From Streptomyces sp. V3I8 (GTDB lineage: Bacteria > Actinomycetota > Actinomycetes > Streptomycetales > Streptomycetaceae), in the NCBI RefSeq assembly GCF_030817535.1, contig NZ_JAUSZL010000002.1, forward strand, positions 4,526,001 to 4,590,000: a DNA stretch of 64,000 nucleotides, read 5' to 3'. The notes under the pieces were generated by a model that saw only the letters and a list, made by a program, of their open reading frames with translations, made no database searches and was not told the origin of the DNA. Below are positions 4,080-11,287 of this stretch, in pieces. Position 1 is the stretch's first letter; every line of letters begins with the position of its first letter. The position numbers and the translations under genes are program-made.

Positions 4080-4193
4080 GTGTTCCGACGCATTGCCGCG
4101 CGTTACCTCCCGGCTCGTTTCATCGCGGCGCTGAGCGCTGCCGTGCTTGCCTTCGCCGCGCTGGTGAGTGCGGCGAACGCGGTGCCCCGGTAG
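4080..4193 (+). CDS. Small membrane peptide (37 aa)
   Basis: The frame starts at GTG 4080 and encodes a 37-residue peptide: a basic N-terminus (FRRIAARYLPAR), one hydrophobic helix (FIAALSAAVLAFAALVSAANA) and a short VPR tail. The A+T-richer upstream sequence (4010-4055) looks like a promoter in this GC-rich setting. Codon third positions are GC-biased, which supports translation. It could be a membrane microprotein or a signal peptide without mature protein; there is a possible AxA cleavage site close to the end. Function unknown. Confidence 0.5.
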   Translation: MFRRIAARYLPARFIAALSAAVLAFAALVSAANAVPR

Positions 4194-4311
4194 GCACCGG
4201 CTCCCCCTGAGGGTCCCCGAGGGCTTCCCCCCCCCGGGGCGCTGCCCCGCCGGGTTGAAAGTGGTTTCTCAACTCCTGCCCGGGGTGTGCACAGGGACGG
4301 CCGTTAGCGTG

Positions 4312-4340
4312 CTCCGCCGTATGGAGAATCTACGGCGGAG
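4312..4340. promoter_or_regulatory. Perfect 10-bp inverted repeat spanning the permease start codon
   Basis: CTCCGCCGTA (4312-4321) and TACGGCGGAG (4331-4340) are exact inverse complements around a 9-nt loop, with the ATG start at 4321 on the edge of the stem. An mRNA hairpin here would hide the initiation region. It could alternatively be a DNA operator. Confidence 0.55.
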
Positions 4341-5334
4341 TGTGGGCGACGGGGTGCGGGTGGCCGCCCGTGCGCTGGTGTACGCGGTGGTCGGCGGGAC
4401 GGCGCTGCTCACCGTCGTCACCGTGGGGTCCGTCCTCGGGCCGACGGTCGCGCTCGATCTCGCCACTCCGGCCACGGCCGCCTGGTGGACGGTGTTCACG
4501 GCCGTCGCCGTACAGGGCATCCCCTTCCTGCTGCTGGGCACGGTCGTGTCGGCGGCGATCGGGGCCTTCGTTCCCGAGCGGGTCCTCAGACGCGTACTGC
4601 CGGGGAACCCGGTGCTCGCCGTACCCGTCGCCGGGGCGGCCGGGGCCGTACTGCCGGGGTGCGAGTGCGCATCCGTGCCCGTGGCGGACAGCCTGATGCG
4701 GCGCGGGGTCGCGCCGGCCGCCGCGCTCGCCTTCCTGCTGTCCGCGCCCGCCGTCAACCCGGTCGTCCTCGTCGCCACCTCCCTCGCCTTCCCGGGGGAG
4801 CCGGCCATGGTCGGCGCCCGGCTCGTCGCCTCGCTCGCCACCGCCGTGGTGATGGGCTGGCTGTGGGTGCGCTTCGGCAAGGAGGAGTGGCTGCCGTCCG
4901 TACGGCGCGGGACCGGCCCGGCGACCGCCGCGGGCGGGTGGCGGGGCTTCCGGGACGGGCTGCGGCACGACTTCCTGCACGCCGGGGGCTTCCTGGTGCT
5001 GGGGGCGGCGGCCGCGGCGACGTTCAACATCCTGGTGCCGCGGTCCCTGCTCGGCGTGTTCACCGGTTCGCCGTGGCTGTCGGTGCCGCTGCTCGCGGTC
5101 CTCGCGGTGGTGCTGTGCGTGTGCTCCGAGGCGGACGCCTTCGTGGCGGCCTCGCTGACCGGGTTCTCGCCGACGGCGCGACTGGCCTTCATGGTCGTCG
5201 GCCCCATGGTCGACCTGAAGCTCGTCGCCCTGCAGGCGGGCACCTTCGGGCGGGCGTTCGCGGTGCGGTTCTCGTCCGTGACCTGGGTGGTGGCCGTGCT
5301 GAGCAGCGTGCTGGTGGGCGGGTGGCTGCTGTGA
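4321..5334 (+). CDS. Permease of the DUF318/UPF0718 family
   Basis: This 337-residue polytopic membrane protein has about eight hydrophobic segments. The family hallmark GCECASVPVADSLMRRG (around residues 112-128) and the matching CSEADAFVAASLTGF segment in the second half (around 270) show the internally duplicated DUF318 permease fold. The family is thought to move metal or metalloid ions or anions across the cytoplasmic membrane; the substrate here is unknown. ATG 4321 was chosen over longer in-frame starts because the first membrane helix follows it closely. The stop overlaps the next start by 4 bp (GTGA), giving translational coupling to the TIGR03943 partner, the usual pairing for this family. 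Confidence 0.88.
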   Translation: MENLRRSVGDGVRVAARALVYAVVGGTALLTVVTVGSVLGPTVALDLATPATAAWWTVFTAVAVQGIPFLLLGTVVSAAIGAFVPERVLRRVLPGNPVLAVPVAGAAGAVLPGCECASVPVADSLMRRGVAPAAALAFLLSAPAVNPVVLVATSLAFPGEPAMVGARLVASLATAVVMGWLWVRFGKEEWLPSVRRGTGPATAAGGWRGFRDGLRHDFLHAGGFLVLGAAAAATFNILVPRSLLGVFTGSPWLSVPLLAVLAVVLCVCSEADAFVAASLTGFSPTARLAFMVVGPMVDLKLVALQAGTFGRAFAVRFSSVTWVVAVLSSVLVGGWLL

Positions 5335-6101: not shown

Positions 6102-6259
6102 CGTCGGCGACGGCACTTGGAAAAGTAGTTCAACCGGGGCCGATACCCGCGATTCCGGCGTTACAGTTCCCTCCTGACGCGCAGGGTGAGGGACGCGTCA
6201 CACATCGCGACGAAGAAGCCGCCGGGTGATCCAGAGCGGCGGTGCATCTGGGGGGCCTC

Positions 6260-8335
6260 GTGCACGAGATGGTCAAGGGCGCCAATGTCGAACTGACGGC
6301 ATTGAGCGAGGACGTGGGCTCCGTCATGGTGAGCCTGGGCTGGAGCAGCCCGACGGGCGAGGGCGACGCGGACGTGTCCGTCCTGCTGCTGACGTCGGAC
6401 GGCAAGGTCCGCAGTGACACGGACTTCTACTTCTACAACAACCCGGTGGCGGCCGACGGTTGCGTGCAGCTGCTGGGCAAGGCGCCCACGGCGGACGGCA
6501 ACGAGGACCGCATCACCTTCGACCTGACCGCGATCCCGGCGGACGTCGAGCAGATCGTCGTGGCGGCGAGCCGTTACGACGGAGCAGGGTTCGGGGACCT
6601 GGACGACGTCCGGGTGACACTGGCCGACGGCTCAGGCGAAGGGCTGCTGCGGTTCTCCATCGAGGACGCCGGGGCGGTCGGCGCACTCCTCTTCGGCGAG
6701 CTCTACCGGCGCGCGGGCGACTGGAAGTTCCGTGCCATCGGGCAGGGGTACGAGTCCGGGCTCGCGGGTCTGGCCCAGGACTTCGGCGTCGATGTCGACG
6801 ACGACGCGGAAGAGGCGGAAGAGGCCGAGGCGGCGCAGCGGGCCGGGGTGGAGGTACCGACCGAGGCCGTTGCCGTGGAGGCGGAGCCCGCTGCCGACGC
6901 GGGAGCGGTTCCGGCGCTCGTCGTCGTGCCCGAGCAGGCGGCGGCGGAGCCGGCGGTGGACGGTACGGCCGAGGCCGTACCGGTGCCGGTTTCGGTGCCG
7001 CCGCCCGTACCGGTACCGGCACCCCGGCCCCGTACGGCCAAGAAGAAGGTCACGCTGCCCAAGGTCGCCAAGAAGTCGCTCGCGGAGAACGACTCCTGGC
7101 GGTCCGCCCGGCTCTTCCCGGTCTCCGCCCTGAAGAGTGACCGCGACAGGGAGACCCGCGCGACATCCGTACTGCTGTCCGTGATGGCGCAGGTGCCGGA
7201 ATTCGGCCGGCGGCTCACCGCGGAGTTCGGGGCGCCCGCCGGACGCATGGAGACCTTCACGGAGGTCTCGCTGCCGAACGGCGACTCCCCGCGCCGGCCG
7301 GACGGTGTGATCCGCGTGGAGCGGGCGGGCAAGCTCTGGACCGCACTGGTCGAGACCAAGACCAACGGCAACTCCCTCAAGCCGGACCAGGTGCAGGCGT
7401 ACGCCGACATCGCCGCCCGCCGGGGCTACGAGGCCGTCATCACCCTGTCCAACGACGTGGAACTGGACGGCAGCCCGCTCGTCGACGTCAAGACGGACGG
7501 CCGGCGCAAGCACAAGGTGGCGCTGCGGCACCTGTCGTGGGCCGAGGTCACCCACCAGGCCCAGATGCTGATCCGCCACGAGGGCGTCGGCAACGCGGCA
7601 CACGCCTGGCTGCTCCAGGAACTCCTGCACTACCTTCAGCACGACAACTCCGGATGCCACGGATTCCAGAACATGGGACCGGCCTGGGTGCCCGTGCGCA
7701 ACGGCATCGACGACGAGACCCTCTGCCAGGGCGATCGGCGGGCGGTGGAGGTCGTCGAGAACTGGGAACGCCTCGTCCGGCAGGTGTGCCTGCGCCTGGG
7801 CGGAGAACTCGGGCAGAAGGTGCTGCCCGTGCAGCGGACGAAGCGCGGTACGGATCCCCGCGCCCGCCGAGCGGACCTCGCCGACCAGCTCTGTCTGGCG
7901 GGCAGACTGGATTCCGAGCTGCGTATCGAGGGCACCCCGGGCATCCTCGCGCTCTGCGCGGACCTGCGGACCGGCAGACTCCGTACGTCCATCGAGATCG
8001 CCGTCCCGGAACAGGGCTATCCGCTGACCTGGGCCAAGCGGCTCGTCCGTCAGCTCACCGAGGCCCCTGCCGACCTGCATGTCGAGACACTGCTGTCGGG
8101 TCAGGCCGGCGGGCCGCGCGGGACGCTGGAGCGACTGCGTCCGGAACCCGGTGACCTCCTTCCCAAGAACGCTGCCGAGATCGCGGGCTTCCGGCTGTCC
8201 CTCTTCCGGAACATGGGCAGCACGCGCGGCGCCGCCGAATCCGGTTTCATCCGCAGCGTCGACGAGGCCGTGGACCGTTTCCACGACCACGTGGTCACAC
8301 ACCTGGAACGGCGCCCGGCCTCAACGCGTCGTTGA
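6260..8335 (+). CDS. TerD domain fused to a PD-(D/E)XK nuclease-like domain
   Basis: This is a 691-residue fusion. Residues 1-180 are a TerD domain (start MVKGANVELTAL; DFYFYNNP; GELYRRAGDWKFRAIGQGY), a Ca2+-binding fold of the tellurite/stress-response Ter system. An acidic stretch, a Pro/Val/Ala linker and a Lys-rich patch (AKKKVTLPKVAKK) lead to a second globular part. Around residues 346-385 it carries RPDG (Asp348), then ETK (Glu365, Lys367), then QVQAY, the order expected of a PD-(D/E)XK nuclease core. The last 300 residues are unrecognised. I prefer GTG 6260, with GGGGGG just upstream, because TerD proteins begin right there; GTG 6242 is the alternative. No signal peptide. Nuclease activity is an inference from motifs. 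Confidence 0.85.
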   Translation: MHEMVKGANVELTALSEDVGSVMVSLGWSSPTGEGDADVSVLLLTSDGKVRSDTDFYFYNNPVAADGCVQLLGKAPTADGNEDRITFDLTAIPADVEQIVVAASRYDGAGFGDLDDVRVTLADGSGEGLLRFSIEDAGAVGALLFGELYRRAGDWKFRAIGQGYESGLAGLAQDFGVDVDDDAEEAEEAEAAQRAGVEVPTEAVAVEAEPAADAGAVPALVVVPEQAAAEPAVDGTAEAVPVPVSVPPPVPVPAPRPRTAKKKVTLPKVAKKSLAENDSWRSARLFPVSALKSDRDRETRATSVLLSVMAQVPEFGRRLTAEFGAPAGRMETFTEVSLPNGDSPRRPDGVIRVERAGKLWTALVETKTNGNSLKPDQVQAYADIAARRGYEAVITLSNDVELDGSPLVDVKTDGRRKHKVALRHLSWAEVTHQAQMLIRHEGVGNAAHAWLLQELLHYLQHDNSGCHGFQNMGPAWVPVRNGIDDETLCQGDRRAVEVVENWERLVRQVCLRLGGELGQKVLPVQRTKRGTDPRARRADLADQLCLAGRLDSELRIEGTPGILALCADLRTGRLRTSIEIAVPEQGYPLTWAKRLVRQLTEAPADLHVETLLSGQAGGPRGTLERLRPEPGDLLPKNAAEIAGFRLSLFRNMGSTRGAAESGFIRSVDEAVDRFHDHVVTHLERRPASTRR

Positions 8336-8390: not shown

Positions 8391-10205
8391 TCACGGACGT
8401 GGTGCGGTCGTCGGTTTCGGTGGGGGCGGGAGGGTGCCTCCGGGGGAGCCGGCGAGTTGCCATACCTCGTTCAGTTGCTGGGCGGCGTACGTGCCGGGCT
8501 CCTGTGTGCCGGTGAGGCCCGTGACCCGGACGGGCTTTCCGTCGCGTTCGGCGAACAGGGCCAGGGTGACGGCCAGTTCCGGTGAGTACACGCTCTCCCA
8601 GACCGTCCGTGTGCCCGGGCCGCTGCCCGCGCCCGCCGAGTGGCCGGCCGGCAGGGCGGGCACCGGCTCCGGCACGGCGGTCCGTGTCGGGGGCCGCGCC
8701 TTGGCCTGCGCGAAGAGGGGGTCCGTGGCGTACGGCCCGCTCATCAGGCCGGCGGCGAACGCCGCTTCCTTCTCGTGCATCGCCGTACGCCTCTCCGGCC
8801 GTGTGGTGCGCACCGTACGGCCCGCCTCGGTGATCTTCGCGACGGTGTACGGGGTCGCGTAGGTGCCGCCGGCGGCCACGGTGGCGTACGCCGAGTTCAG
8901 CCGCAGGGGCGTCGGAGCCGTCTCCTTGGCGAGCCCGGCCAGCGGGCCGCCGGACCGCAGGGTCCTGGCGAACGGTTCCAGGACGGTGCCCGCCTCGACC
9001 GCCCCGTCGACGGCGTCGTTGAACGGCTGGTGCGCGTAGTCCGCCCCGCCGTACAGCACCCGGACCGCGCCGTCGCCGGGAACGGTCGCCACGACGGCCG
9101 TGTGCAGCCGCGCGCCCTTGCCGCCGCTGCCGCCGCCCTCGCCGTCCGCGGCCGTGGCCGTCCGCTCGCGCACCAGCTCCGCCGTCTCGTCCTGGAGGGC
9201 GAGGTCGAAGGTGGTGTGCACCGTGTAGCCGCCGCGCGCCAGCTGGTCCTGGGTGATGCCGAGCCGGTCGGCGGCCTCGGCGGACGCCGCGTCGATCAGG
9301 TACTGGCGCCGCCCGTCCGTGCTGCCCGGCGGGTAGAAGCGGAAGGCCGGGAAGCGGGCGGCCGACCGCTCGCCGGCACTGATCGCGCCCGAGTCCGCCA
9401 TCGCGTCGAGGACCCACGCCCAGCGCCGCCGCAGCGTCCCCGTCACCTTCGCGTCCGCGCCCGCCCGTTCGTAGTACGAGGGCAGATTGAGGATCCCCGC
9501 GAGGGCCGCGCCCTGGGAGACCGTCAGGTCCCCGGCACCGACGCCGAAGTAGTTCCGGGCGGCGGACTCGATGCCGGCGGCGCCGCGGCCGAAGTACACG
9601 GTGTTGAGGTAGCCCTCCAGGATGTCGTCCTTGGACCGGGTACGGTCCAGCTTCACGGCGATCAGCGCCTCGTGCGCCTTGCGCTGCAGGGACTGCTCGG
9701 GGGTGAGCAGGGCGTTCTTCACGTACTGCTGGGTGATGGTGGAGCCGCCCTGGCGGTCGCCGCCCGTCACGGCGGCGAGCGCGGCCCGCAGGATCGCGGA
9801 GGGGGCGACCCCCGAATCCGTACGGAAGGAGCGGTTCTCCGCCGCGATCACGGCGTCCTGGACGTGCCGGGGGACCTGCCGCAGCGGGATGTCCTGGCGG
9901 TCGACCGGCCCGCGCCGGCCCAGGTACTCGCCCTCGGAGTCCACGAAGACCGTGCTCTGGCTGACGGTCTCGGGGTGCGGCTCGGGAATGGGCGTCATCC
10001 GGTACGCGACGACCAGCGCGGCGCACGCGGAGACGAACAGCGCCAGCAGGGCGGCCAGGACACGGCGGAGCCGGCGGCCCCTGGTGCGGCGCAGACGGAG
10101 CCGGACGCGGCGCAGACGCCCGCCGACGGCACGGAGCCGGTCGCGGGCGCCGCCGGGGGCATTCCCCCCGCCGGCGCCGCCGCGGTCACCGTGGCGGCCG
10201 CTCAT
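8391..10205 (-). CDS. Class A PBP-like glycosyltransferase with degenerate transpeptidase domain
   Basis: This 604-residue protein has a basic N-terminus, one membrane anchor (about residues 48-70) and a GT51 peptidoglycan glycosyltransferase domain. Its motifs are readable: ENRSF with the catalytic Glu, GGSTITQQYVKN, RKAHEALIAVKLD and KDDILEGYLNTVYFG. The C-terminal penicillin-binding domain is present in outline, but the SxxK nucleophile motif reads T407-V-L-E410 (EAGTVLEPFA), and no SxN or KTG motif is found where expected (near AGHSAGAGSGPGTRTVWES). It should polymerise glycan strands but not cross-link. The ATG overlaps the upstream sigma-factor stop by 4 bp, so the two are coexpressed. 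A neutral or regulatory role for the dead domain is possible. Confidence 0.87.
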   Translation of the reverse strand: MSGRHGDRGGAGGGNAPGGARDRLRAVGGRLRRVRLRLRRTRGRRLRRVLAALLALFVSACAALVVAYRMTPIPEPHPETVSQSTVFVDSEGEYLGRRGPVDRQDIPLRQVPRHVQDAVIAAENRSFRTDSGVAPSAILRAALAAVTGGDRQGGSTITQQYVKNALLTPEQSLQRKAHEALIAVKLDRTRSKDDILEGYLNTVYFGRGAAGIESAARNYFGVGAGDLTVSQGAALAGILNLPSYYERAGADAKVTGTLRRRWAWVLDAMADSGAISAGERSAARFPAFRFYPPGSTDGRRQYLIDAASAEAADRLGITQDQLARGGYTVHTTFDLALQDETAELVRERTATAADGEGGGSGGKGARLHTAVVATVPGDGAVRVLYGGADYAHQPFNDAVDGAVEAGTVLEPFARTLRSGGPLAGLAKETAPTPLRLNSAYATVAAGGTYATPYTVAKITEAGRTVRTTRPERRTAMHEKEAAFAAGLMSGPYATDPLFAQAKARPPTRTAVPEPVPALPAGHSAGAGSGPGTRTVWESVYSPELAVTLALFAERDGKPVRVTGLTGTQEPGTYAAQQLNEVWQLAGSPGGTLPPPPKPTTAPRP

Positions 10206-11287
10206 GAGGGGGTGTCCGTCCGTGCGACGAGCTTGCCCGCGGAGTCGTACGCCTTCACGTCGACGTCGTTCGGCAACTTCCCGCCGTCGTCGGGGAACCG
10301 GGTGTCCGCGTACCAGGCCGACCAGCCGGGGGAGCCCGCCAGGGTGAGGACGCGCGCGGTGAACGTCCCTTCGGAGGTGCGCAGTTCGACGCGCGACACC
10401 TCGCGGGTGCCCCGGTGGACCCCGGAGAGGAGGAGCCGCCCGCCGGACGCGGTCTCCGCCCGGACGGTCAGCCCGGAACCACCGTCCTCGTCCAGGCGGT
10501 GGAACAGGTTCGGCTGCCCCGGCGCCGACCAGTGCGTGCCGTCCTTGGTCAGCCACAGCTCCACACCGGGCATGGCGGTGACGCGCTCGCCCGGCGTGAC
10601 GACCCGGACCGCCGTGTCCTGCACCGATATCCGCTCGCCGCCGCCCCCGGAGTCCGTGCCGCGGACGGCTCCCATGACCAGCGGCACCAGGAGCAGGGCC
10701 CCCGCCGACGTGAGCACCGCCGTGGTCCGGCGCCGCTGCCTGCGGCGCGTGCGGCCGGCCTCCTCGACGGCGCGCCGGGGGACGGGCCCGGGCAGGGCCG
10801 GACTCCCCGCGTACGGGCCCTCGCGGTACGCGGGATGGGCGCGCAGCGCCTTCCCGGCCCGGCGCCGGAGCGCTTTGACCGCGCCCGGCGAGGAGCCGAG
10901 CAGCGCGGCCACCTCACGGTGGCCCAGCCCGTCCCAGTGCTGCAGCACGGCCACCGCCCGCCGCCGGGGCGGGAGCGCGGCCAGCACCTCGGTGAGCGGG
11001 TCGAGCGGATCGGGGGCGTACGGCGGCGGTGCGGGCGTGGCCTGGGCCCCGAGGACGCGCGCGGAGCGGACGAGCGGCCGGGGCCGGCGCCGCAGGAAGT
11101 CCCGTACCAGCGCCCGCCGGACGTAGAACTCCGCGTCGTCGCCCGGTATCCGGCGCCGGGCGTACACCTCCGCCAGCGCCGTTCTCGCGCGTCTGTCCGC
11201 GTCGGCGGTGTTCCCCGTGAGCAGCAGGGCCGTACGCGTGAGCCGGGGCCAGTACGCCTCGGCACGGGCGGTGAAGTCGTCGTCCAT
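10202..11287 (-). CDS. ECF-type sigma factor with C-terminal membrane span and extracytoplasmic domain
   Basis: This 361-residue protein fuses a sigma-like part to a membrane domain. Residues 1-160 contain a weak region 2 (FTARAEAYWPRLTRTALLLTG) and a clear region 4 (LPPRRRAVAVLQHWDGLGHR, then VAALLGSSPGAVKALRRRAG) of the SigE/SigJ type. A basic linker, one hydrophobic helix (about residues 188-208, TAVLTSAGALLLVPLVMGAV) and 150 extracytoplasmic residues with no recognised fold follow. This puts sensing and transcription in one chain; release would need proteolysis or membrane-bound action. Region 2 has lost several usual core-binding and -10 residues, so promoter recognition is uncertain. 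It is coupled to the PBP-like gene by an ATGA overlap and is divergent from the ECF gene at 11455. Confidence 0.8.
   Translation of the reverse strand: MDDDFTARAEAYWPRLTRTALLLTGNTADADRRARTALAEVYARRRIPGDDAEFYVRRALVRDFLRRRPRPLVRSARVLGAQATPAPPPYAPDPLDPLTEVLAALPPRRRAVAVLQHWDGLGHREVAALLGSSPGAVKALRRRAGKALRAHPAYREGPYAGSPALPGPVPRRAVEEAGRTRRRQRRRTTAVLTSAGALLLVPLVMGAVRGTDSGGGGERISVQDTAVRVVTPGERVTAMPGVELWLTKDGTHWSAPGQPNLFHRLDEDGGSGLTVRAETASGGRLLLSGVHRGTREVSRVELRTSEGTFTARVLTLAGSPGWSAWYADTRFPDDGGKLPNDVDVKAYDSAGKLVARTDTPS

Follow-up and report, generated by a model that had tools for sequence, protein, structure and literature searches.

A gene at 6260..8335 on the forward strand of a 64,000-nucleotide stretch of the Streptomyces sp. 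V3I8 genome (the window) codes for a 691-residue protein that joins in one chain a TerD domain, a linker with a lysine patch, and a 417-residue module (residues 275-691) whose motif follows the order found in PD-(D/E)XK nucleases. Read from the sequence, the fusion is real as an architecture and the nuclease activity is predicted. We favor the interpretation, at a probability of roughly 60%, that this is a single-gene, conditionally active PD-(D/E)XK nuclease. The reading frame is open from a GTG at 6242, but the start that aligns with relatives is the GTG at 6260, which lies behind a run of G residues, yields the 691-residue product, and matches the gene extent and residue numbering of a first-pass annotation. 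That annotation had proposed a PD-(D/E)XK-type nuclease domain fused to TerD, and motif conservation, a profile match and an AlphaFold2 fold all speak for it. All features of this protein described below are encoded on the forward strand.

The nuclease core spans residues 294-426 (7139..7537), as delimited by the AlphaFold2 model, fold matches and an alignment of relatives, and consists of a helix with E298, strands that hold or are flanked by E335, D348 and E365/K367, and a helix with Q377 and Y381. These residues and P347 are identical in 220 of the 221 aligned relatives; the remaining row starts inside the module and, truncated by a contig end, does not include the motif. D348 of RPDG (7301..7303), E365 and K367 of ETK (7352..7360), and the Q-x3-Y pair of QVQAY (Q377 and Y381; 7388..7402) are invariant in all 220 rows that cover them. 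The first-pass annotation had pointed to just these motifs, with Asp348, Glu365 and Lys367 in nuclease order, and the ordered and conserved D...(D/E)xK signature places the module in the PD-(D/E)XK superfamily by motif. FokI and BamHI presumably share the same 17- and 19-residue spacing from the aspartate to the glutamate and the lysine.

The AlphaFold2 model of the module is confident (predicted local distance difference test score 89, predicted template modelling score 0.88) and positions D348, E365 and K367 on central strands of nuclease type, consistent with a PD-(D/E)XK core fold. Wide separation of these three residues or a non-nuclease fold had been named beforehand as outcomes that would count against the prediction, and to the extent that predicted secondary structure and fold matches can tell, the test did not go against it. 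The nearest Foldseek matches are MspJI and EcoT38I, and a second fold comparison again returned MspJI together with AspBHI; AF1548 and FokI are also matched, and archaeal Holliday-junction resolvases appear among the final rows of the list. A search of BFVD folds gave one match with E < 0.001, and several of the matches listed are annotated as PD-(D/E)XK or restriction proteins. In the profile searches, which the annotation had suggested as a further check, VRR_NUC (PF08774) aligns with residues 344-392 (E 0.015), its 15.8 bits falling below the curated cut-off of 23.8. The protein shares the D-E-x-K order, the Q-x3-Y helix and the fold of PD-(D/E)XK nucleases but differs from them in this subthreshold score and in its C-terminal partner domain. 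TnsA and Tox-REase-7 are weak profile matches as well, no Pfam or NCBIfam model exceeds its cut-off over the module, VRR_NUC was not found in 13 genomes of relatives, and a profile search of the PDB (profile A3) returned one match at chance level (E 1.3).

The conserved unit extends beyond the nuclease core, as N398, W427, E454 and W476 are identical in 221 of 221 aligned relatives. Residues 430-691, earlier described as an unassigned domain of the "last 300 residues", in fact number 262 and comprise a helical connector and one domain, both conserved along with the nuclease part among the aligned relatives. The connector, delimited by the model and the alignment, occupies residues 427-468 (7538..7663) and the C-terminal domain residues 469-688 (7664..8323). 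In the predicted model the latter appears to resemble YbjN and the type III secretion chaperones, a likeness of fold alone, and it differs from YbjN in lying in one chain with a nuclease core and in having no sequence-profile similarity to it: hhalign against 16 YbjN sequences (PF10722) gave a probability of 0.4%, within the 0.1 to 0.5% of four shuffled controls, and we rejected YbjN as an assignment by sequence.

The TerD domain occupies residues 1-180 (6260..6799) and is a clear member of its family, matching PF02342 over residues 2-175 with E 3.4e-48 and 164 bits (cut-off 25.3) and aligning over its full length with solved TerD proteins (chains 2kxt/2kxv and 3ibz). However, it differs from these in its calcium loop, which reads GDNRTGEGDGDDE in solved TerD and GKAPTADGNED in the window protein, as well as in being fused to a nuclease module. 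Klebsiella TerD is described as binding two calcium ions, Ca1 through residues 40, 41, 42, 78, 79 and 89 and Ca2 through 29, 82, 84 and 88 (PMC8779313, citing Pan 2011). We mapped these ligands onto 129 fused proteins, taking the numbering of chain 2kxt as that of Klebsiella TerD. A two-residue deletion removes D78 and N79 in all 129; a phmmer alignment puts the gap two residues later, with Lys-Ala opposite D78-N79, and the ligands are gone under both alignments. Position 82 is proline in 124, position 84 is glycine in just six, and position 88 is glutamate in 118 and aspartate in none. By contrast, D42 is kept in 129, D40 in 124 and tryptophan at 29 in 127 of the 129, and position 89 is aspartate in 124, alanine in three and glutamate in two. 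Canonical TerD proteins encoded elsewhere in this genome (L001-L005) retain the loop. The canonical calcium-binding residues of the fused TerD thus seem to have been lost, and on this mapping we rejected the calcium-binding TerD domain of the first-pass annotation as unsupported.

Between TerD and the module lies a low-complexity linker rich in Ala, Glu, Pro and Val (about residues 181-274; 6800..7081), which ends in a Lys/Arg patch, RPRTAKKKVTLPKVAKK (residues 256-272; 7025..7075), the lysine patch noticed earlier. The RTAKKK of this patch recurs in five further Streptomyces proteins, and at several Streptomyces loci DNA similarity, having faded across the variable linker, picks up again at 7016-7025. 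NCBIfam models gave weak matches over the linker only.

We propose that the catalytic unit would be the two-domain module of PD-(D/E)XK core and chaperone-like C-terminal domain. D348 and E365 would hold the metal, K367 would serve as the catalytic lysine, and Q377, Y381 and E298 would play supporting roles. The C-terminal domain may bind a protein or peptide ligand, form a dimer, or both, and could thereby set when the active sites meet on nucleic acid. TerD, attached through the flexible linker with its lysine patch, might act as a tether or as a sensor of a ligand other than calcium; the loss of the canonical ligands makes a tether or a binder of another ligand the more likely role. A nucleotide derivative has been suggested as a ligand of TerD (PMC7159879) and could apply here. 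The cleavage activity of the protein is inferred, as is its cellular role, which may lie in stress response, defense or restriction.

The module belongs to a large family. A search with the window protein recovered at least 1800 relatives at E ≤ 0.001, and among the best 120 of these 118 carry TerD, the other two being short-contig fragments without it. A search from a stand-alone relative recovered at least 4905 clusters at 90% identity at the same threshold, and the best 120 of these are all 442-508 residues long and without Pfam domains. A single-sequence search found the module in 19 of 396 genomes of the phylum, and a profile search in 43 of 296 genomes of the class, representing 17 of 114 genera. 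A scan of named genomes gave 279 relatives in 312 stretches, 80 of which were retained, including loci of Microbacterium, Nocardioides, Micromonospora, Kribbella and Lentzea. The TerD profile found no match in the 1500 bases upstream of any of these 80 other Actinomycetota loci (at least 540 bases being present in 79), and the modules there consequently stand alone. The module also sits on plasmids, six from Streptomyces and five from Rhodococcus; none of 50,697 phage records matched, and a scan of viral contigs yielded one partial relative.

The 18 fused rows of a 54-row tree form one clade (support 99/96), suggesting that the module was probably joined to TerD once; the fusion is found in Streptomyces, in Rhodococcus and in the genus to which genome G235 belongs. 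A single origin is likely rather than proven, because long branches join the two fused branches and drew a warning from the tool. The gene stands by itself, has a patchy distribution and is in some cases broken. Among 295 Streptomyces genomes 103 have any match to the module. In 84 of these a single match covers at least 95% of it, with an in-frame stop in two and a split near the N-terminus in one; the remaining 19 contain shorter or split pieces only, which in one genome lie at a contig end. Of 78 genomes of the G235 genus, 34 match: 23 over the full length in one match, one as two pieces that belong to the same 648-residue frame, five with partial or split matches and five in TerD alone. 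Neighborhoods were compared at 16 Streptomyces loci (L155-L169 and L174), in one of which (L162) TerD is barely recognizable (E 0.0011). Five share neighboring genes with the window, another two have a second location in common, and the remaining nine have at most four scattered gene clusters in common with other intact loci. At nine loci placed elsewhere the DNA starts to resemble the window 9-16 bases ahead of the start codon, and in L160 it does so 42 bases ahead. The remnant L170 sits between genes that also flank the window copy, and the remnant L172 has five neighbors in common with the intact copy L165. No conserved operon partner was found at 77 stand-alone loci, where the commonest other cluster of open reading frames (ORFs) occurs in 22, in varying places and on both strands; where 20 fused loci from the genus of G235 were compared, none of the other clusters among the first 12 occurs in more than four, although individual pairs of loci may have more in common.

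A lone, patchy gene that is also carried by plasmids, with MspJI, EcoT38I and AspBHI as fold neighbors, could be an orphan modification-dependent (type IV) restriction enzyme, in which the core cuts modified foreign DNA while the C-terminal domain and lysine patch read the substrate, and which needs no partner methyltransferase. We think this possible, if unlikely. The nuclease half matches the MspJI-like enzymes by fold, but Pfam lists no known DNA-reading domain such as SRA, the C-terminal fold appears to be like that of protein-binding chaperones, and the TerD fusion is left unexplained. Generic methyltransferase domains occur in four of 139 near neighbors of the fused genes, a count from a comparison in which no search was aimed at methyltransferases.

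That stand-alone relatives in some regions of the tree cluster according to host family, and that archaeal Holliday-junction resolvases are among the last fold matches, would suit a housekeeping or DNA-damage nuclease that processes ends or branches and is kept or lost by lineage, with TerD adding stress-dependent localization. The fused genes also adjoin no excess of defense models (see below). We nevertheless consider such a role doubtful, since the gene is patchy within one genus, its neighborhoods differ and broken copies occur.

The first-pass annotation had instead proposed a calcium-controlled defense nuclease, switched on by calcium binding to TerD during phage attack or DNA damage. 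Homology to TerD and the retention of D42 and D40 favor this reading, but control by calcium is unsupported because D78 and N79 are missing from all 129 fused proteins, and G82, G84 and D88 are mostly changed. PADLOC matched the protein to none of its families at E ≤ 10, within the filters of HMMER. Neighbors were compared using mechanically called ORFs, dropping proteins longer than 1000 residues and those past 149 proteins or 49,500 residues; 36 fused loci contributed 139 of 143 near and 131 of 132 far proteins, and 44 of the 77 stand-alone loci contributed 149 of 175 near and 149 of 151 far. Five PADLOC models matched near the fused chromosomal genes and 41 far from them, and so show no excess nearby. 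The stand-alone loci gave 63 models near and 19 far, which speaks against a simple lack of enrichment. All these counts refer to models and not genes, and the near excess may reflect redundancy, as the 25 models listed are mainly of PD-T4-6 (kinase-type) and are matched by two member proteins each.

The part of the defense proposal that finds some backing comes from Rhodococcus plasmids. Four annotated loci (L041, L042, L124 and L125) of five records were compared, the fifth being unannotated, and three have a cyclic oligonucleotide-based antiphage signaling system (CBASS) near the fused gene, L125 having none. In L041 (12303-16154) the SMODS cyclase, E1-E2/ThiF, JAB and NucC (NucC-like DUF6602) components are identified by profile; in L042 (671-9053) the cyclase is identified by profile and the rest by annotation, with two genes in between; and in L124 the set is identified by annotation, with JAB not in the table listed. 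L041 and L124 have most protein accessions in common and represent one lineage. Even so, given the lost ligands, the missing PADLOC match and the lack of an excess beside the fused chromosomal genes, calcium-switched defense appears very improbable. Separately, L042 encodes a SIR2 protein, and two of its genes match LeoA/BnzB weakly; a RES-family NAD+ phosphorylase gene, adjoined by a small gene, lies near the fused gene in L041 (6558-7304), L124 (6648-7304) and L125 (11533-12177).

Some PD-(D/E)XK domains are inactive. A catalytically silent fold acting as a nucleic-acid or protein scaffold, of the inactivated kind treated in PMC11090510, is nonetheless a very poor fit here, since it would be hard to account for motif positions that are all invariant if the protein did not cleave.

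A bolder version of the conditionally active nuclease that we favor, and one we regard as rather improbable, is that the module defines a large unnamed actinobacterial family of one-gene effector nucleases, in which the secretion-chaperone-like domain would sense foreign or misfolded protein and license the nuclease, and in one branch of which TerD, stripped of calcium binding, would sense another stress ligand, creating a one-protein switch for DNA destruction upon stress or infection. TerD domains are abundant and their role is obscure, and a TerD in cis with a nuclease offers a testable output for a Ter protein. Moreover, since the family includes at least the 4905 clusters noted above and no curated family scores above its cut-off in the proteins tested, a single biochemical finding could supply the annotation of a widespread gene. 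Ter-system parts are also tied to nucleases in the TerY-P modules of CoCoNuT and related restriction systems, but TerY-P is described in PMC11090510 as a three-gene VWA/phosphatase/kinase cassette and not as a TerD in cis with a nuclease. The portions available of the literature searched (including PMC8779313, PMC8123226, PMC7244524, PMC7159879 and PMC11090510) do not mention a TerD-nuclease fusion; earlier comparative work on Ter systems may already describe one.

In the window the gene is apparently monocistronic, with an ArsP-like permease gene upstream (4168-5334, forward) and a converging transglycosylase/penicillin-binding protein gene downstream (8391-10556, reverse), and the module is present in a single copy in the genome. 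Upstream of the start lies a palindrome-like element, TGAGGGACGCGTCACAC (6187..6203, forward), one arm of which departs from TGTG-N8-CACA. The exact form, at a distance of 40-103 bases upstream, is present in 13 of the 16 Streptomyces loci, across different neighborhoods, compared with 0.03 of 16 loci expected from mononucleotide shuffling; the other three are the window, L157 and L160. A partly overlapping set has it in 20 of 31 loci, whereas all 23 loci compared from Rhodococcus and the genus of G235 lack it. Some of this conservation may be due to common ancestry of the upstream DNA. We take the element to resemble CRP-type sites.

A short peptide, S(T/S)A-hydrophobic-SS, is found in the last 120 residues of 51 of 80 stand-alone proteins and in none of 118 fused ones, and is possibly a binding or degradation tag. 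The genome has 20 TerD matches. A canonical TerD gene with an intact calcium loop (L003; 25061-25615, reverse) lies in the window about 17 kb from the fused gene, and other matches (L006, L011/L014, L012, L013, L015 and L017) sit in open frames of 453-783 residues, which are frames and not gene calls, with L011 and L014 adjoining in frames of equal length. These lengths suggest that the genome may encode more TerD fusions.
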